In this document: positions 472 through 11,627 of the stretch, piece after piece
Layout: each line of letters opens with the position of its first letter
How positions within the stretch are numbered: position 1 is the first letter of the stretch
Source of the DNA: Rhizobiaceae bacterium
Lineage (GTDB): Bacteria; Pseudomonadota; Alphaproteobacteria; Rhizobiales; Rhizobiaceae
Reading direction: 5' to 3'
NCBI GenBank assembly: GCA_019635775.1
Contig: JAHBYU010000007.1
Span: 124,001 to 188,000 of the forward strand
Length of the DNA stretch: 64,000 nucleotides
Position numbers and translations under genes: made by a program
Notes under the pieces: model-generated
The model's input: the letters and a program-made list of their open reading frames with translations, nothing else
The model's database searches: none
Told to the model about the DNA's origin: nothing

Positions 472-1061
472 ATGCGGCTCGCGGAGCTCTCTGACATTCA
501 CTCCGGTTACACGGCGCGCGGCAGGCTCGATCCGCTGCCGGAGGGTGGCGTGCCGGCGCTGCAGCTGCGTGACGTCGGAACAAACGGCGAAGCGCCAGGC
601 CCGGACTTCCAGAGGTACGACCTGGGCAGACTGTCCGACCGATACTTCGTCCGCGGCGGTGAGGTCGTCTTTCGCTCGCGTGGCGAGCCGAACGCTGCGG
701 CGGCCATTCCCGATCCGCTGCCGGAGTCCGTCGTTGTCATCGTCCCGTTGGTGATCGTTCGCCCGGACAAGGACCGAGTTCTCCCCGAATACCTGGCGTG
801 GGCCATCAACCAGCCCGACGCGCAGCGCAGGCTCGGAGCGGAGGCGCAGGGCACAAGCCTCAGGATGATTCCGATGGCGGTCCTCGAGAACCTCGAGATC
901 GCCGTGCCCGACCTGCCCACGCAGAAACGCATTGTCGAACTCAATGCTCTTGCCCAGCAGGAGGGACAGCTGCTCCGCCAGCTCGCCGCACGCAGGGAAG
1001 AACTCGTAAGCGCCATTCTCGGCGAAGCCGCGAAGGCCGCCGACCGGAAGGAAATTGCCTG

Positions 1062-1062
<1 letters not shown>
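472..1062 (+). CDS. Half-size type I restriction specificity (S) subunit-like protein
   Basis: A 196-residue protein with one target-recognition-like domain followed by a helical spacer; full HsdS has two of each and about 400 residues. The C-terminal part VPDLPTQKRIVEL (around residues 143-155) matches the conserved PLPEQxxIxxI start of the S-subunit coiled coil. Half S subunits can dimerise to recognise palindromic DNA, or may act as accessory proteins. It is the first gene of the operon, and its TGA overlaps the ATG of hsdM (ATGA). A full hsdS follows hsdM, so this is a second S-like polypeptide in the same transcript. Whether it joins the methylase or works separately cannot be told from sequence. 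Confidence 0.7.
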
Positions 1063-2571
<1,509 letters not shown>

Positions 2572-2579
<8 letters not shown>

Positions 2580-3837
2580 AACAGCAGAAGAATGCTCGCC
2601 CGAGCGTCAGGGTTACAAGGAAACCAAGATCGGCCTGCTGCCGACTGGCTGGGAAGTCGTAACCTTGGAGGAGATCACGGAGCCCAAAGCTCCAATTCGC
2701 TACGGTGTAGTGCAGATCGGGCCAGATACGCCGGGTGGTGTCCCCATTGTGCCGATCAAGCACATTCGGCGCATCGGAAACGTAGTACTCCATAGTGCGT
2801 CGCCAAAGATCGAAGGCCAATACAAAGGCAGCCGCGTTAAAGGCGGCGACGTCCTGCTGTCGGTCAAGGGCACGATCGGCGAAGTTGGCGTCGTACCTGA
2901 CGGCTTCGAAGGGAACATCGCGCGCGAGATCGCACGGATTCGCCCAAAGCCTTGCTGCGACGCGCAATTCCTCTCACTGCAAATTCAAGCACCACAGACC
3001 CAGAGACGTATAGACAACCTGGTAGTGGGCTCGACGCGCCTCGAGTTTTCGATCCACGCGGTCCGGGACTTCACGGTGCCGCTCCCCCCGCTCCCCGAAC
3101 AGCGCAAGATCGCCGAGATCCTGCGGACTTGGGACGAGGCGCTCGAAAGGCTCGCCGCGCTGCGCGCGGCGAAACAAGATCGGTTGAACGGCCTGACGCA
3201 GCAGATCATCGGTCGTGGCGGGGTGTTCCCTGATCGGTGGCCGCTCAAGCCGCTGTCTGTGGTTGCGTCTTCGATCCGGCGGACGAGCGCAGGCGACAAC
3301 CATCCCGTCATGACGATATCGGCGAAGTCCGGTTTCCTCATGCAGTCCGACAAGTTTGCCCGCGACATGGCAGGCCAGAGCGTCGATCGCTACACACTGC
3401 TGCACGAGGGCGAGTTCGCCTACAACAAGGGCAACTCCAAGACTGCGCCCTACGGCTGTGTCTTCCGTCTCGACCGCCCCACGGCGCTGGTCCCATTCGT
3501 CTATTTCTGCTTCGCACTGAAGCCGGGTGTCGATCCCGAGTTCTACGAGCATCTCTTTGCCGCCGGTGCGCTGAACCACCAACTTTCGCGTCTTATCAAC
3601 TCGGGCGTCCGCAACGACGGGCTGCTCAATCTCCATTCCGACGACTTCTATAGCTGCCGGATTCCGGTACCGCCAATCGACGAGCAGTGCCGGATCGCAC
3701 TCGCCCTGACGGCTGCGAAGCAGGAACTGGCGTTGCTCGTTGATGAGATCGAAGCCCTGACCCGCCAGAAACGCGGCCTCATGCAGAAGCTGCTGACGGG
3801 CGAGTGGCGCGTGAATTTAGAGAGGGTACTGGCATGA
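2572..3837 (+). CDS. hsdS: Type I restriction specificity subunit
   Basis: A 421-residue S subunit with two target-recognition domains, each followed by a conserved coiled-coil spacer: LPPLPEQRKIAEIL near residues 171-184 and VPPIDEQCRIALAL near residues 364-377. The N-terminal GLLPTGWEVVTLEEI is the usual start of the first recognition domain. It sets the bipartite DNA target of the methylase/nuclease. The ATG at 2572 lies inside the end of hsdM (8-bp overlap). The end contains KRGLMQKLLTGEWRV, the standard HsdS terminus. It overlaps the next gene by 4 bp (ATGA). It looks intact, so the DNA specificity should be assignable from methylation data. Confidence 0.93.
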
Positions 3838-4301
3838 AGATTCTTGGATTTCGTGGCGACCCGAAAGCCCCTCGTTACGCGGTAGTCTCCGAGGTGGTCG
3901 GCGCCTACATCCTGGAGAATGCCGCCAGCGACAACAAGCTCTCCGTCCCCGCGTCGATCACCGAGGATGCGGATGCTGAGCGGCTGGAGTGGATGTATCG
4001 CGAGATTCTGGCGATCTTCGATGCACACCCCGGCATCGAACGCGTGGTAATCAAGCAGAACGAGTTCACCCGTCAGGATACGAAGGCGAAACGCCGTTCC
4101 GCCTACAACGACGCTGCGGTGATCCTCGCCTGTGCGCATCGAGGTATCCCTGTCGAAGTCAAGATTTACGGCTCGATGTCCACGACGAGCGCGGACACGA
4201 AACGACACGCAGAGAGCCGCGTCGGGAAAACCGAAAAGTACTGGGACACCAAGATGGCAGACGCGGTGAATGCCGCCTGGTGGGGGCTTCGTCACCCATG
4301 A
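3834..4301 (+). CDS. Small RNase H-fold (RuvC-like) protein within the restriction operon
   Basis: A 155-residue soluble protein. The pattern KILGFRGD near the start, a hydrophobic strand before an acidic residue (VVIKQNEF), then a helix with NDAAVILACAHRGIPVEVKIYG resembles the RuvC/RNase H-like resolvase fold, in which an alanine-rich helix precedes a short strand. The typical RuvC acidic tetrad is not obvious, so activity is uncertain. The ATG at 3834 overlaps the hsdS stop (ATGA), and its own stop overlaps the kinase start by 4 bp, so it is a core operon member. A nuclease or nucleic-acid-sensing role beside the kinase is an inference; the fold assignment comes from pattern only. Confidence 0.55.
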   Translation: MKILGFRGDPKAPRYAVVSEVVGAYILENAASDNKLSVPASITEDADAERLEWMYREILAIFDAHPGIERVVIKQNEFTRQDTKAKRRSAYNDAAVILACAHRGIPVEVKIYGSMSTTSADTKRHAESRVGKTEKYWDTKMADAVNAAWWGLRHP

Positions 4302-5374
4302 ACCAGCTTGTCCCTGTCACCCTCACGCCCGGCATGACCCTCTATAAGTACCGATTGGTCAGCAAGATCGGCGCGGGCAGCTTCGGCGAAGTCTGGCTTG
4401 CACAGGATCTGGCCGTGCAACGGGAATATGCAGTCAAGATACTCCAGCCAGGGGTTTCAGTTGACGATCGGTTGCGTGAAGCTCAGATCGGCAACCGGCT
4501 CGAGCACAACAACCTCGTGTATGTCCACCAGGCCGATGTCGTGCCGGTGTCGGGGGAGCATGCGGTCATCCTCGCCATGGACTACCAGCCGAACGGCTCT
4601 GTCGAGACCCTAGCAAATCCGGCCGGCTATCTGCCGCTTCCCGCCGTCCTGCGGATCGCACGAGATATCCTGCAGGGGCTGGAGTATCTCCATGCGCGCA
4701 GCTTCTATCACAACGACATCAAGCCAGGGAACATCCTGCTGGGACCGCAGCAGCAGGCGATGCTGTCTGATTACGGGATCACTGGCGTTTCATCGAACGG
4801 CGCCCCGGTAGCGGCCCCGAACGCGTATGTCCTACATCGTGCACCGGAAGTCCTGGCGACAGGAAATATCGGCGTAAATTCGGACATCTTCCAGGTTGGC
4901 ATGACCCTTGCCAGGTTGCTGATTCATCTGGATCACCTGCGGTCAGTCCGCGCCAGCATCGGGCCTGCGCAGTACGATCAGGACATCGCATCCGGGAAGC
5001 TCCTTCAGGCGAAGGACTTCGGGTGCCACATTCCCGCAGCGGTTCGGCGTGTCATCCTGAAGGCCGTCCATCCAGATCCGGCCCAGCGGTTCGCTAGCGC
5101 CCTTGAGATGCGGCGTGCGCTCGAAAAGCTGGACTACCCCGGGCATTGGACGGTCGACGCCGCTGGCAACGAGCTCGGTAAATGCGGAGTCTATGAGTTT
5201 TCGCACTCGGCCGCGCCGGTTGGTCGCGGGAAGTTCGACGTGACCTGCACCAAGCGGAGTGTCGTGTCAGGCAACACCCAGCGCGTCACCCAGTTCTGCA
5301 GGCGGGGTCTAACCCAGAAGCAGGCGGAAAAGGTCGTCGCGGACTTCAAGCAATTCGTGGTGACCGGCAAATGA
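4298..5374 (+). CDS. Hanks-type serine/threonine protein kinase inside the type I RM operon
   Basis: A 358-residue kinase with a glycine loop GAGSFGEVW (25-33), ATP-binding lysine in AVKIL (K47), a catalytic loop HNDIKPGN (138-145), a metal-binding DYG (158-160) in place of DFG, and the APE-like motif RAPE (181-184). HND instead of HRD makes it a non-RD kinase, so it may not need activation-loop phosphorylation. The catalytic domain ends near residue 275, followed by about 80 residues with conserved-looking cysteines (C203-type positions in the tail, e.g. in DVTCTKRS and TQFCRRG) that I do not recognise. No membrane segment is present, so it is cytoplasmic. It overlaps both the RNase H-like gene and hsdR by 4 bp. 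It may phosphorylate the restriction complex or act as a phage sensor; both are inferences. Confidence 0.9.
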   Translation: MNQLVPVTLTPGMTLYKYRLVSKIGAGSFGEVWLAQDLAVQREYAVKILQPGVSVDDRLREAQIGNRLEHNNLVYVHQADVVPVSGEHAVILAMDYQPNGSVETLANPAGYLPLPAVLRIARDILQGLEYLHARSFYHNDIKPGNILLGPQQQAMLSDYGITGVSSNGAPVAAPNAYVLHRAPEVLATGNIGVNSDIFQVGMTLARLLIHLDHLRSVRASIGPAQYDQDIASGKLLQAKDFGCHIPAAVRRVILKAVHPDPAQRFASALEMRRALEKLDYPGHWTVDAAGNELGKCGVYEFSHSAAPVGRGKFDVTCTKRSVVSGNTQRVTQFCRRGLTQKQAEKVVADFKQFVVTGK

Positions 5375-8300
5375 CCTTCAACGCCGCCGAAAAATACCAG
5401 TCCCAAGTCCCGGCGCTTCAGCTGCTGGTGGCGCTTGGGTTCACGCCGCTCTCGCAGGAGGCAGCCCTGCGCCCGCGTGGCGGGCGGCTACGCAATGTTG
5501 TGCTGGACGACGTACTCGCCGAGCAGCTCATGCGCATCAACCGCTTCACGCATAGGGGCCGTGAGTACGCCTTCGACCTCGAGGACGCGCACGAGGCGAT
5601 GCGGCGGCTCAAACCTACTCCCGATCGGCTGAAGGGTCTCCGCGGGACGAACCAGGACATCTACGACACACTTGTTCTAGGCACGACGATAACGAAGTCC
5701 ATCGACGGCGACTCGAAGAGCTACTCGTTCCGCTACATCGACTGGGAGCGGCCGGAAAACAATGTCTTCCATGTCACTGCCGAGTTCTCGGTCGAAAGGA
5801 CCGCGTCGAGCCAAACCAAGCGCTGCGACATCGTGGCGTTCGTGAACGGCATCCCCGTTCTGGTCATCGAAAACAAGCGGCCGACCGAAAGCCTGAAGAA
5901 GGCGGACAGCCAGCTGATCGGCTACCAGAACGAGGACAACATCCCGCAGCTCTTCCACTTCGCCCAGCTGCTGATAGGCATGAATCGAAGCGAGGCGCGT
6001 TATGCGACCGTCGGGACGCCGCGGAAGTTCTGGCAGACGTGGCGCGACGAGGATGACAGTGACGAGGCGATCGCGCCCTTCGCCAACCGCGTGCTCACCG
6101 TGGCAGAGAAGGACACCATCTTCTCCGGTGACTTCGCAGGCGCACGCGCGTACTTCGACGCAATGGCCGCAGAGGGCGAGCGCGCCGTCACGGTTCAGGA
6201 CCGCACGGTGTACGCGCTGTGTCGTCCCGAGCGGCTGCTCGATCTCATCCGCCGCTTCACGGTGTTCGATGGCGGCGTCCGCAAGGTGGCGCGCCACCAG
6301 CAGTTCTTCGGGATCCGCCGCGCCGTGGAGACGGTCAAGCAGCACGATGTCAGCGGCGCCCGCAAGGGCGGCGTGATCTGGCATACACAGGGCTCGGGCA
6401 AGTCGTTGACGATGGTGATGCTGGGACGCTCGCTTGCCTTGGAGCGCGGCATCGAGAACCCGCGGATCATCATCGTCACGGACCGCGACGATCTCGACAA
6501 GCAGATCAAGGACACCTTCAAGTCCTGTGACCTCGAGCCGGTTCGCGCGACGAGCGGGGCTCACCTTCTGGAGCTTGTTCACAATAAGGCTCCGCTGGTC
6601 ACCACGATCATCAACAAGTTCGACACGGCGCTGAAGAACAGCAAGCGGGCGGACGAGGATCCGAACATCTTCGTGCTGGTCGATGAGAGCCACAGGACTC
6701 AGACGGGTCGCTACGGCGGCCACAGCCAGTTCGCCGCCAAGATGCGGCGCCTTCTGCCCAAGGCCTGCTACCTCGGCTTCACCGGTACGCCCCTGCTGAA
6801 GAAGGAAAAGAACACGCTGTCGACCTTCGGGCGGCTGATCCACCGCTACGCCATCGACGAGGCGGTCGCCGACGGCGCCGTCGTGCCGCTGCTCTACGAG
6901 GGACGGCTTGTCGAGCAGCAGGTCTCAGGCACCGTCATCGACCGCTGGTTCGAGAAGATCAGCGAGGGGCTGACTGACAGCCAGAAGGCCGACCTCAAAC
7001 GCAAGTTTTCCCGGATGGACGCGCTTGCCAAGACCGACCAGGCCATCCGAGCCAAGGCGTTCGACATCTCCGAGCATTATCGCCAGCACTGGCAGGGGAC
7101 CGGCTTCAAGGCACAGCTCGTTGCCCCCTCGAAGGCCGCGGCCGTCCGCTTCAAGGAGGTCCTCGACGAGATCGGCCATGTCTCGAGCGCGATCGTCATC
7201 TCGCCGCCCGATGAGAATGAGGGCAACGAGGAGGTCGATCAGGAATCCAAGGACCTGGTGCGCCGCTTCTGGTCGCAGATGATGGCGCGGTACAAGACCG
7301 AGGAGGAGTACAACCGCCAGATCATCGATGCCTTCAAAGGCTCCGGCGATCCAGAGATCCTGATCGTCGTCTCCAAGCTCCTCACCGGCTTCGACGCGCC
7401 CCGGAACACGGTGCTTTACGTCTGCAAGTCCCTGAAGGAACACAATCTCCTGCAGGCGATTGCGCGGGTGAACCGGCTCTACGAGGACGGCGGAACGGAG
7501 AAGCAGTTCGGCTTCATCGTCGACTACGAGGGGCTACTCGGCGAGCTGGACAGCGCCCTGACGACGTATAGCGCCTTTGAGTGTTACGAGGCGGCCGACC
7601 TCGCCGGGACGGTACATGATATCCGGGAGGAGATCCGCAAGCTGCCCCAGTTGCACGACCAGCTCTGGGACCTCTTCAAACCGGTCCGGAACAAAAAGGA
7701 CATGGAGCAGTTTGAGCAGCATCTCGCAGACGAGGCGCTGCGCCACGAGTTCTACGCGCGGCTCAAGGCGTTTAGCCGGTGCCTGCACATCTCGCTCTCG
7801 TCCGACAAGCTGTTCGATGTCTTCGACGAGGCCAAGGTCGATGCTCTGAAACGGGACTGGAAGCAGTTCTCCGAACTCAAGCGCTCGGTCCAGCTTCGCT
7901 ACCAGGAGACGGTCGATGTCCGCGAGTTCGAACCGAAGATCCAGAAGCTGCTCGATGACCACGTTGTGGCGATGCCGGCGGAGACCATCATCGAGGTCGT
8001 CAACATCAACGATCCTGATGCGCTGAAGGCGGTCGTCGAGGAGAGGGGCGTCTCCGAAGCCTCGAGGGCCGATCGCATCGCCAGCGCGACCCGACGAGCC
8101 ATTACCGAGAAGATGGATGAGGATCCGACGTTCTACAAACAGTTCTCCGAGCTGCTCGAAGAGACCATCCGCGCCTACCGCGAGAAACGGCTATCCGAGC
8201 GCGAGTACCTGAACAGCGTCGTGGACCTCGCGAGCAAGGTGGCACGCAAGGACCGAGGCCGGGATGTTCCCGAAAGCATCCGAGGCGATGAGGATGCACA

Positions 8301-8586
8301 GGCGTTCTTCGGGATCCTGGACGGTCAGCTCAGGACCAAAGGAGACTCGCTGGTTGAAGGCGACGATGCCGCAGCGATCGCACAACAGATCATTGACATC
8401 ATCAAATCGCACCTGATCGTCGACATCTGGTCGAACGAAGTGGCCCGGAACAATCTGCGCAACGCCATAGACGACTACTTCTTCGACGTTCTGCGCGACG
8501 AGCGAGGCATCGACCTCCCGGTGGAGATGCTCGACGATCTGGAACTGAGGATCATGGACCTCGCCCGGGCCAGATTCTCGGCATGA
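5371..8586 (+). CDS. hsdR: Type I restriction endonuclease, R subunit (nuclease and translocase)
   Basis: A 1071-residue subunit that cleaves unmodified DNA after ATP-driven translocation. The N-terminal PD-(D/E)XK nuclease is visible as D153 in CDIVAF and E167-x-K169 in VIENKRP. The SF2 motor follows, with Walker A GSGKS (341-345) and the DEAD-type box DESH (438-441). The second RecA lobe includes the SKLLTGFDAP and QAIARVNR motifs, and the C-terminal helical region binds the HsdM/S complex. All key residues are present and the length is typical, so it should be active. Its ATG overlaps the kinase stop and its TGA overlaps the start of the metallopeptidase gene. Confidence 0.96.
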   Translation: MTFNAAEKYQSQVPALQLLVALGFTPLSQEAALRPRGGRLRNVVLDDVLAEQLMRINRFTHRGREYAFDLEDAHEAMRRLKPTPDRLKGLRGTNQDIYDTLVLGTTITKSIDGDSKSYSFRYIDWERPENNVFHVTAEFSVERTASSQTKRCDIVAFVNGIPVLVIENKRPTESLKKADSQLIGYQNEDNIPQLFHFAQLLIGMNRSEARYATVGTPRKFWQTWRDEDDSDEAIAPFANRVLTVAEKDTIFSGDFAGARAYFDAMAAEGERAVTVQDRTVYALCRPERLLDLIRRFTVFDGGVRKVARHQQFFGIRRAVETVKQHDVSGARKGGVIWHTQGSGKSLTMVMLGRSLALERGIENPRIIIVTDRDDLDKQIKDTFKSCDLEPVRATSGAHLLELVHNKAPLVTTIINKFDTALKNSKRADEDPNIFVLVDESHRTQTGRYGGHSQFAAKMRRLLPKACYLGFTGTPLLKKEKNTLSTFGRLIHRYAIDEAVADGAVVPLLYEGRLVEQQVSGTVIDRWFEKISEGLTDSQKADLKRKFSRMDALAKTDQAIRAKAFDISEHYRQHWQGTGFKAQLVAPSKAAAVRFKEVLDEIGHVSSAIVISPPDENEGNEEVDQESKDLVRRFWSQMMARYKTEEEYNRQIIDAFKGSGDPEILIVVSKLLTGFDAPRNTVLYVCKSLKEHNLLQAIARVNRLYEDGGTEKQFGFIVDYEGLLGELDSALTTYSAFECYEAADLAGTVHDIREEIRKLPQLHDQLWDLFKPVRNKKDMEQFEQHLADEALRHEFYARLKAFSRCLHISLSSDKLFDVFDEAKVDALKRDWKQFSELKRSVQLRYQETVDVREFEPKIQKLLDDHVVAMPAETIIEVVNINDPDALKAVVEERGVSEASRADRIASATRRAITEKMDEDPTFYKQFSELLEETIRAYREKRLSEREYLNSVVDLASKVARKDRGRDVPESIRGDEDAQAFFGILDGQLRTKGDSLVEGDDAAAIAQQIIDIIKSHLIVDIWSNEVARNNLRNAIDDYFFDVLRDERGIDLPVEMLDDLELRIMDLARARFSA

Positions 8587-9299
8587 CGCGCGAGTTGCAC
8601 TGCCTGCGTTACGGCGAGCAAGAGATCCGATATGAAATCGTCCGCCGCGCGAGGAAGACGCTCGAGATCGCCGTCGAGCCGGATGCGTCGGTGGTGATCG
8701 CAGCCCCGGAGGACGCGACGCTGGACGCCATAGAAGCCAAGCTGAGGAAGCGGGCAGCTTGGGTGACAAGGCAGCAACGGTATTTCTCCCAGTTCCTGCC
8801 GCGGACGCCGGAGCGCAGGTTCGTCGCCGGGGAGACCCATCTCTACCTCGGGCGTCAATACCGGCTGAAGGTCGTCCCGCATGTCCAGGAAAGCGTGAAG
8901 TTGATCCGCGGCTTCATCGTCGTGCAAACGCATCGGCAGGCCAAGCCGGAGGTGACGCGCGAACTGGTCGAGGCATGGTACCGGGACCGGGCCCACATCA
9001 AGTTTCCGGAGCGGATCGAACTCTGTCTCGGTCTCTTCCCGGATCCCGAGGCATTCCGGCCAAAAGGTCTCATCGTGCGCCAGACCCGGCAGAGATGGGG
9101 ATCCATGTCGCCAGCGGGTCGGCTGCTGCTCAATCGCCGCCTGGTACAGGCGCCGGTCGACGCCATCGACTACGTGATCACTCACGAACTCTGCCACGTC
9201 GCGGAGCCTCATCACGGGGCGGCGTTCTTCGAACTCCTCGACAAGGTGATGCCGGACTGGGAGCGTCGGAAGCAGAGGCTGGAACGGGCGATGGCCTGA
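8583..9299 (+). CDS. YgjP/WLM-type zinc metallopeptidase (DUF45) at the end of the RM operon
   Basis: A 238-residue protein of the M48-like, SprT-related DUF45 family. The zinc motif HELCH lies at residues 201-205 in VITHELCHVAEPHH, with a later acidic segment likely providing the third ligand. QRWGSMSPAG and LLLNRRLVQAP are hallmarks of this family. Such genes are repeatedly found as the last gene of type I RM operons, where their job is not settled; proteolysis of HsdR to limit self-damage has been suggested for other systems. The ATG at 8583 overlaps the hsdR stop by 4 bp, so it is co-translated. Confidence 0.9.
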   Translation: MTRELHCLRYGEQEIRYEIVRRARKTLEIAVEPDASVVIAAPEDATLDAIEAKLRKRAAWVTRQQRYFSQFLPRTPERRFVAGETHLYLGRQYRLKVVPHVQESVKLIRGFIVVQTHRQAKPEVTRELVEAWYRDRAHIKFPERIELCLGLFPDPEAFRPKGLIVRQTRQRWGSMSPAGRLLLNRRLVQAPVDAIDYVITHELCHVAEPHHGAAFFELLDKVMPDWERRKQRLERAMA

Positions 9300-10012: not shown

Positions 10013-10088
10013 CACCTGACTGCTGATAATGCCGGTGGAAGCTGCGCGGTTGGCGGCCGGCCAACTCTGCTCTAGCTTGGCTTAGGTG

Positions 10089-11627
10089 ATGCCGGTGTCC
10101 AATACAAACATCCGCGACAGGTTCTTGGCCGTTCTTCTGCTGGCGACGGCTATGGTCGCCTGCTTTGAAATCTGGCTTGTCTTGAGTGCCAGAAATGCTG
10201 GCAGTGCTGCGGGCGGGGATCCGAACGGACTGGGCCTGCTGTTGCTCGCAGTCTTCCTGATCGGCGCCGTTGTCAGCTTCTTGGGTGCACGGTCGTTGTG
10301 GCCGCGATCAAGTGCCGCTGCGGTGGCGCAGTCAACGCAGCTCTTTGGCCGCAACGCAAATGCCCAATCAGATGCTGGTCCGCGCGGCCGCGTCGTCTTT
10401 CTGGTGTTGCCTGTGATCGTGCTGGCTGCAGCCGGCGTGCATCACAGCTTGCTCCAGAACATGCCGCCAGAAGGCGACATCGTCGCTTCACAGCCGCCGC
10501 CCGACCAGCCGGCACCGACACCGCCTCAAAATATAGCAGCAGATCCCGAACAGCCTGCGCCGCCGGTCGCAGGGGACGACATCGCCGCCGCGCCGCCGAC
10601 ACAGGAACCAGTCCCGTCCCAGCCAGAAGAGCCCGCCGAGCCGGTACCGCCGGTGGTTCCTGCGCCGGCCCCGCCACCGGTCACAACCGCGCCGTTGCCG
10701 GAACCCGTTCCACTCCCTGCCGATGCAAGCGGACATCGTGAATCCGTCGTCTGGCTTGACGTAGGCACAGACGGTCGAATGCTGCTGAGCGCCAGCACGG
10801 ATAAAACGATCAAGCTTTGGGATCTGGAGGAAAAACGCCTCATCCGGGACCTTGGCGTCCACAAGGATATGGCGCGGACCGCGCTATTCATGCCGGATGG
10901 CGTTCACGCGCTGACCGCAGGGGATGACGGCGAAATCGTGCTGCGCTCACTGTCTGACGCCACCGTGACGCATGTTTTCGACGCGGGGCAGAATGGTGGG
11001 GTGAACAAGCTTGCGATTTCTCCCGACGGGCGCCGCGCCGTCAGCGGCCACGATACCGGCAACGTCATCATCTGGGACCTCGAGAAGCGGATAGCGCGAC
11101 ATGTCTTGACCGGACACGCCTGGTCCATCTCGTCGGTTGCGGTATCACCGGACGGTATTCGCGCCTTGAGCAGCAGCATCGATGGCGAGTTGAGGCTGTG
11201 GGACATTGAAGCTGGTCGCCTGCTTCGAAGATGGCAAGGCCATGAGCGTGGCGCCTACGGCGCCGTATTCGCGACAGACGGAAAACACGCCTTCACAGGT
11301 AGTGGTGATCTGACGATCAAGCTTTGGGATATAGACTCCGGCAAGGAGCTCAAGCGGTTCGTCGGCCATTCCGGTACGGTTTACGCTCTGGCGCTATCTA
11401 AGGATGGCAAGGAAATTCTCAGCGCATCGCTTGATGGTTCGGCGCGCCTATGGAACGTCGAAAGTGGTGACCAGCTTGCGATGTTCGATCCCGGCACGGG
11501 ACCAATCCATTCAGTTGCGTTCGCTGGCGACGGCTCCGTGCTGACCGGCGGCATCGATCGCACGATCCGGCGCTGGCCAGCTGGTGGAGGCGATGGCGTT
11601 GTGTTGTTTGCTGGCACAGCGGAATAG
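10089..11627 (+). CDS. Membrane-anchored WD40-repeat protein
   Basis: About 512 residues. Two hydrophobic segments near the N-terminus (about residues 11-32 and 47-67, and a third near 100-120) anchor it in the inner membrane. A proline-rich linker (about 130-210) leads to a seven-bladed WD40 propeller (about 215-505) with repeated IKLWDLE, IIWDLEK, LRLWDIE, IKLWDID and ARLWNVE blade ends. Such propellers are scaffolds for protein contacts; no enzyme domain is seen. GTG at 10086 is an alternative start directly before this ATG. It is flanked by repeat copies and has no operon partner. Confidence 0.85.
   Translation: MPVSNTNIRDRFLAVLLLATAMVACFEIWLVLSARNAGSAAGGDPNGLGLLLLAVFLIGAVVSFLGARSLWPRSSAAAVAQSTQLFGRNANAQSDAGPRGRVVFLVLPVIVLAAAGVHHSLLQNMPPEGDIVASQPPPDQPAPTPPQNIAADPEQPAPPVAGDDIAAAPPTQEPVPSQPEEPAEPVPPVVPAPAPPPVTTAPLPEPVPLPADASGHRESVVWLDVGTDGRMLLSASTDKTIKLWDLEEKRLIRDLGVHKDMARTALFMPDGVHALTAGDDGEIVLRSLSDATVTHVFDAGQNGGVNKLAISPDGRRAVSGHDTGNVIIWDLEKRIARHVLTGHAWSISSVAVSPDGIRALSSSIDGELRLWDIEAGRLLRRWQGHERGAYGAVFATDGKHAFTGSGDLTIKLWDIDSGKELKRFVGHSGTVYALALSKDGKEILSASLDGSARLWNVESGDQLAMFDPGTGPIHSVAFAGDGSVLTGGIDRTIRRWPAGGGDGVVLFAGTAE

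Follow-up and report, generated by a model that had tools for sequence, protein, structure and literature searches.

Why does a restriction operon of a Rhizobiaceae bacterium carry a protein kinase gene and a gene for an RNase H-like protein between hsdS and hsdR, and do these two genes belong to the restriction system or do they have a function of their own? The operon lies near the start of the window, by which we mean the whole analysed stretch of 64,000 nucleotides (contig JAHBYU010000007.1, positions 124,001 to 188,000). The original prediction had proposed a composite defence system in which the kinase and its partner may sense infection or tune restriction.

Layout of the operon and its two embedded genes

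Seven intact genes are arranged head to tail on the forward strand, each with an ATG start and a TGA stop and each overlapping the next by 1–8 nt. The ORF coordinates bear out the overlapping layout that had been predicted: S1 (472..1062), hsdM (1062..2579), hsdS (2572..3837), the RNase H-like gene (3834..4301), the kinase gene (4298..5374), hsdR (5371..8586) and, as the last gene, one for a YgjP-like metallopeptidase (8583..9299; 238 aa, PF01863 6.3e-53). HsdM (505 aa; N6_Mtase 2.6e-99, HsdM_N, TIGR00497 above cut-off), HsdS (421 aa; Methylase_S 2.5e-21, PADLOC PDLC03087 3.8e-91) and HsdR (1071 aa; HSDR_N and SWI2_SNF2 in Pfam, TIGR00348 above cut-off) are encoded in this single operon. By gene content, the chassis around the two embedded genes is a type I restriction-modification (R-M) operon. 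The 196-aa S1 protein had been taken for a half-size S subunit. PADLOC agrees (Specificity_I PDLC03199, 4.1e-16), although the Pfam score of 17.6 bits is under the cut-off of 22, and the naming comes from PADLOC only. S1 is found in most chassis relatives. No sigma-70-like promoter was matched. The pair and the R-M genes are probably co-transcribed because they lie in the same overlapping operon.

The operon may be the cargo of an island. A phage-type integrase gene (Phage_int_M 1e-25, with an arm-binding domain) covers positions 1-274 of the window, runs on upstream (L191:11040-12275) and ends about 200 bases ahead of the operon. A tRNA-Ser is located about 5.5 kb before the window, no tRNA was found within it, and no 18-base word common to both flanks read was detected. 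Beyond the operon, positions 10086-11627 encode a WD40-repeat protein of 513 aa.

The kinase (P0002, 358 aa; Pkinase 2.1e-33 in Pfam) displays K47, E61, HND at 138-140, DYG at 158-160 and APE at 182-184. Both HND and DYG, on which the call of a complete Ser/Thr kinase had been based, are present as written, and the catalytic residues are invariant in 13 of 13, 12 of 12 and 16 of 16 aligned kinases (three overlapping sets). The predicted model has a C-terminal beta-alpha domain at about residues 282-356, with a pLDDT of 88-95 from residue 291 onward. The PADLOC matches, mad6 (5.1e-40) and PD-T4-6 (3e-39), end near residue 280, which is the end of the kinase domain.

Known defence systems with kinases were considered as homes for this protein; Stk2 is a further defence kinase. 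Membership in MADS (MAD6) was rejected with 132.6 bits against an NCBIfam cut-off of 460, and membership in BREX/Pgl (PglW) with 38.1 bits against 990. A full-length match to PD-T4-6 was not obtained, the best matches covering residues 10-282 of 358 without the tail, in a library that has no cut-off. MAD6, PD-T4-6 and PglW thus share the Ser/Thr kinase domain with the window kinase, but they differ from it in partner and size.

The partner (P0001, 155 aa) gave no family match in Pfam, PADLOC or NCBIfam at E 0.1. Its structure model nevertheless displays a full-length RuvC fold, so the earlier naming as RNase H-like is upheld even though the family scans were silent. In RuvC the first catalytic acid is an Asp on strand 1; in the partner, with the register taken from the sequence alignment, this position is held by Arg7 in all rows of three overlapping sets (13/13, 12/12 and 16/16). 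The same arginine separates the partner from DUF3010 proteins. Since the arginine is invariant, the partner is unlikely to be a nuclease of the RuvC type. From its sequence it may still be a nuclease built in another way, because four other acidic positions are kept (D9 or N, E/D77, D82 or E, and D143). When the PDB was searched with the partner's sequence profile, RuvC was not among the matches; what came up was an adenylate kinase at E 0.25, which we took as a chance match. Against six relatives, the genes for the kinase and the partner show dN/dS values of 0.04-0.12, that is, purifying selection, and therefore they are not chance ORFs.

Recurrence of the pair inside and outside restriction operons

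Queries with the partner returned 10 loci in genome contigs, three plasmid records (two of them near copies), five viral contigs (in two scans) and one further genome. This amounts to 18 distinct loci besides the window, and the kinase gene lies directly downstream in every one of them. We had to consider that the pair might be found only here; its recurrence settles this point. No kinase of the same kind without a partner was found with the kinase as query in viral contigs or with the kinase tail as query in plasmids, both of which returned the same contigs. The pair is carried on plasmids, in phages and, in the window, beside an integrase gene. It is rare among the other genomes sampled: the partner profile matched one of 296 in the order and none of 397 in the phylum, it is absent from three of three genus-mates, and a search of phage records gave no match. 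One weak match in the class sample (4.2e-4, 385 genomes) was dropped, as it proved to be a RuvC-like ORF adjoining RuvA/RuvB-like ORFs (named by eye).

Fifteen of the 18 other loci lie in this type of type I operon, and three are on phage contigs (L020, L021, L022), of which 21, 21 and 8 kb were read without a match to any chassis gene. Two of the loci have an unusual chassis. In L001 the pair is intact, whereas S1 is unmatched and the match to hsdM starts at residue 242; this remnant fits autonomy of the pair, although the loss may be recent. In L007 (422-9177) hsdR is split and its 3' part is found with YgjP, inverted, upstream of S1, which is either an inversion or a misassembly.

DarTG2 is an ADP-ribosylation toxin-antitoxin system; like the GmrSD-type enzymes, it is unrelated to the RuvC-like protein and kinase of the window. 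It is one of several separate systems that, according to the respective papers, reside within type I operons as the pair does: DarTG2 of E. coli (EPEC), placed between hsdS and hsdR (PMC12255303), TgvAB of VPI-2 and RloF (PMC11411939), and PrrC in EcoprrI (PMC12707154). The original prediction, which allowed such operons only the hsd genes and sometimes a YgjP metallopeptidase or an anticodon nuclease, had thus drawn up too short a list. Embedding in type I operons is already published; new, as far as the open-access literature searched shows, is an embedded module of two genes that joins a kinase to a partner of this type. No paper on a kinase of this kind in type I loci was found in the open-access literature searched by title, or in the passages of PMC12255303.

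PrrC is the classic guardian of an R-M system, and the pair could act similarly: the R-M complex would keep the kinase silent and a phage anti-restriction protein would set it off. The shared embedding in a type I operon (PMC12707154) and the 15 of 18 other copies in this chassis speak for such a role. We consider it unlikely, since type I genes are missing from the stretch read around each of the three phage copies, the same pair accompanies an HsdR as distant as 43-44% identity (L013), and unrelated cargo occupies the same slot. PrrC, moreover, is a tRNA anticodon nuclease triggered by R-M inhibition, whereas the window pair has no such nuclease and has copies apart from R-M. Some dependence of the pair on R-M is possible, because most of its other copies are in R-M operons.

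Exchangeable cargo in the hsdS-hsdR slot and in a phage interval

The slot between hsdS and hsdR was surveyed with HsdR as query, so that loci without the pair were sampled as well. Thirteen plasmid records contained an HsdR at least 60% identical, and the 10 listed and read have an HsdR 75-95% identical. Among these 10, the slot holds DUF6119 (TIGR04141) in four, Shedu with a HAD protein in two, Shedu with DUF3800 in one, and HAD, DUF3800 and the RuvC-like/kinase pair in one each (cargo named by record annotation, with eight cargo proteins checked by Pfam). At 1e-200, HsdR matched 16 genomes other than that of the window, five of 384 in the class sample and 11 of 296 in the order sample. Thirteen of these 16 were fetched, leaving out G640, G361 and G119 because of a contig end or low identity. 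Their slots contain DUF3800 (four), DUF6119 (two, one of them with an unknown ORF), Kiwa (one) and the pair (one); three are empty and two uninformative. In one metagenome-assembled genome (L009), the pair and DUF3800 are found together.

PADLOC recognised Kiwa by KwaA (1.3e-78) and KwaB (6.2e-120). It also recognised Shedu in three loci, where the best profile scored between 2.6e-167 and 7.2e-172, and assigned one HAD protein to candidate PDC-S34; the NCBIfam model of KwaA reached 51.4 of 100 bits, short of its cut-off. PADLOC gave no match for DUF6119 or DUF3800 cargo, of which one protein each was scanned. As these proteins occupy the same slot as Kiwa and Shedu, we regard both as defence candidates. 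DUF6119 was seen in the slot of L023 (7316-8989), L024, L025, L030, L060 and L061, and DUF3800 in L028, L031, L032, L053, L054, L056, L064 and L009.

A second slot exists between hsdM and hsdS, which is empty in the window. It holds RhuM in L003, L026, L027, L028, L029 and L052 (the last being PADLOC candidate PDC-S05) and, in L013 and L032, a protein annotated as GIY-YIG and assigned to DUF4357 by Pfam.

How often the cargo was exchanged was examined on a tree of HsdR, built by a quick method from 36 rows, 35 of them labelled, most pair rows being included because they carry the pair. The pair requires eight changes on this tree, at least seven of which are forced by starred branches, and all cargo labels together require 15 against a minimum of six. 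The labels are somewhat clustered, with equally low counts in 13 of 500 shuffles for the pair and in one of 200 for all labels. Over its first 60 bases, hsdR of ten loci shares 75-90% identity with that of the window regardless of the cargo; the exchange is therefore clean at the gene border.

These exchanges bear on the idea that the kinase tunes restriction by phosphorylating HsdR or HsdM. The single overlapping operon would suit it. Chassis with an HsdR 92-95% identical, however, carry other cargo in place of the pair, and the sequence read around the phage copies (21, 21 and 8 kb) is free of type I genes, which makes tuning very improbable; this part of the original prediction is not supported. 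Because of these same two observations, the pair appears to be exchangeable cargo that acts in its own right.

The surroundings of the phage copies were investigated with the primase of L020 as query, and 76 loci were kept (from the best 80 of 84 stretches). The pair is present in two of the 76, namely the contigs of L020 and L021, where it follows the primase gene and precedes a gene whose matches to nucleases and resolvases are weak. The interval that runs from the primase gene to the next shared gene varies between loci: it spans at least 600 bases in 54 loci, with 213 ORFs in 97 clusters. Twelve interval proteins were scanned; they were hand-picked for a defence-like look, and hence no rate can be derived from them. 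In sister phages, the interval contains a CBASS cyclase with a 2TM effector (L154), AriAB of PARIS (L122), SIR2 (L118), a KAP NTPase of PDC-S20 (L121), an OLD-like ATPase (L098), an AbiJ-like protein of PDC-S32 (L104) and Schlafen AlbA proteins (L161, L149). The interval protein at L104:9914 had no PADLOC match.

The position next to a primase gene could also indicate a pair of phage origin that serves host takeover or replication and was captured by R-M operons without any function in defence. This is highly improbable to us: the pair is accessory in the phage family (the two loci of 76 mentioned above, among the best 80 of 84 stretches), the interval contains known defence genes, and most copies are located in R-M operons.

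The context of the pair is thus one of defence at the genomic level, as both the R-M slot and the phage interval contain known anti-phage systems. Since these are two unrelated kinds of site, and since both genes are under selection, defence is the best reading. With moderate confidence, and judging from sequence, we consider the pair an autonomous, mobile two-gene anti-phage module that is carried as cargo in the hsdS-hsdR slot. From the composite defence system of the original prediction, the composite locus, the recurrent pair (18 loci) and defence as the likeliest function remain; that the pair is a part of the restriction system is not supported, given the phage copies and the cargo swaps.

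An addiction pair, with the kinase as toxin and the RuvC-like protein as antitoxin, would stabilise a mobile element rather than act against phages. The small gene comes first and overlaps the kinase gene, and the pair is found on plasmids, in phages and beside an integrase gene, as such an arrangement would lead one to expect. To our knowledge, though, antitoxins do not usually have a RuvC fold, and the sites are common to the pair and known defence systems. We regard this explanation as quite unlikely; it overlaps with an anti-phage module, because toxin-antitoxin pairs can also defend.

A pair of similar layout and a possible mechanism

DUF3010 has been assigned to the RNase H-like superfamily and is similar to Holliday junction resolvases, according to PMC3985635; the word kinase is absent from the text of that paper. 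The partner has no match to DUF3010 (PF11215) at E 0.1, but a comparison of profiles (P 8e-5) gives a hint of kinship. In a sister phage (L100), a DUF3010 gene (7.8e-29) overlaps by four bases with a gene for a 358-aa kinase, and L187, L189 and L192 have the same gene order and similar sizes. Like the window pair, these DUF3010-kinase pairs consist of an RNase H-like protein of about 140 aa followed by a kinase of 358-366 aa, adjacent and on the same strand. The kinases of L100 and the window are 23% identical over the catalytic domain, while the similarity of the tails is not significant. On the viral contig L192 (3563-5080), the pair lies between P2-type capsid and terminase genes (named by eye). 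In the open-access literature, we found neither a RuvC-like nor a DUF3010 protein described as the partner of a kinase.

The association is looser for DUF3010. In genomes, a kinase motif is nearby in one of 16 DUF3010 loci and absent from the other 15, and L190 has a DUF3010 gene without an adjoining kinase. Conversely, plasmid pHG1 of Cupriavidus necator H16 (L193:4001-5625) encodes a kinase that is 36% identical to that of L189 and has no DUF3010 neighbour; a 176-aa ORF follows the kinase gene in place of the preceding DUF3010 and is perhaps another type of partner. These observations, namely the DUF3010 loci without a kinase motif and the L193 kinase without DUF3010, count against autonomous defence, as does the DUF6119 and DUF3800 cargo without PADLOC match.

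How might the module act? The RuvC fold and the altered active site suggest a nucleic-acid sensor, and we propose only tentatively that the partner detects infection. It would bind an infection-linked nucleic acid, e.g. branched or processed phage DNA, and the bound partner would then release or activate the kinase, perhaps via the C-terminal domain. The active kinase would phosphorylate host or phage proteins and halt growth ahead of phage release. Growth arrest is suggested by the fact that other defence kinases stop growth. Defence, sensor role, trigger and arrest are the parts of this model that we infer.

More doubtful still is a generalisation to a class of two-gene immune modules. In these, a former resolvase of RuvC fold, whose first catalytic Asp is replaced by a basic residue, would have become a sensor of viral DNA structures that licenses a cell-arresting kinase. 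The class would comprise at least two deep subtypes, the window pair and the DUF3010-kinase pair, and its members would shuttle between two kinds of site, the defence hotspots of phages and the hsdS-hsdR slot of R-M operons.

If the model is true, the known defence kinases would gain a member that works with a RuvC-like partner, and the change of a nuclease fold into a sensor could be put to the test. A natural experiment is offered by the chassis, in which closely related type I operons differ in a single slot that is filled by Kiwa, Shedu, DUF6119, DUF3800 or the pair. The slot may also serve as a discovery tool, any occupant of it being a defence candidate.
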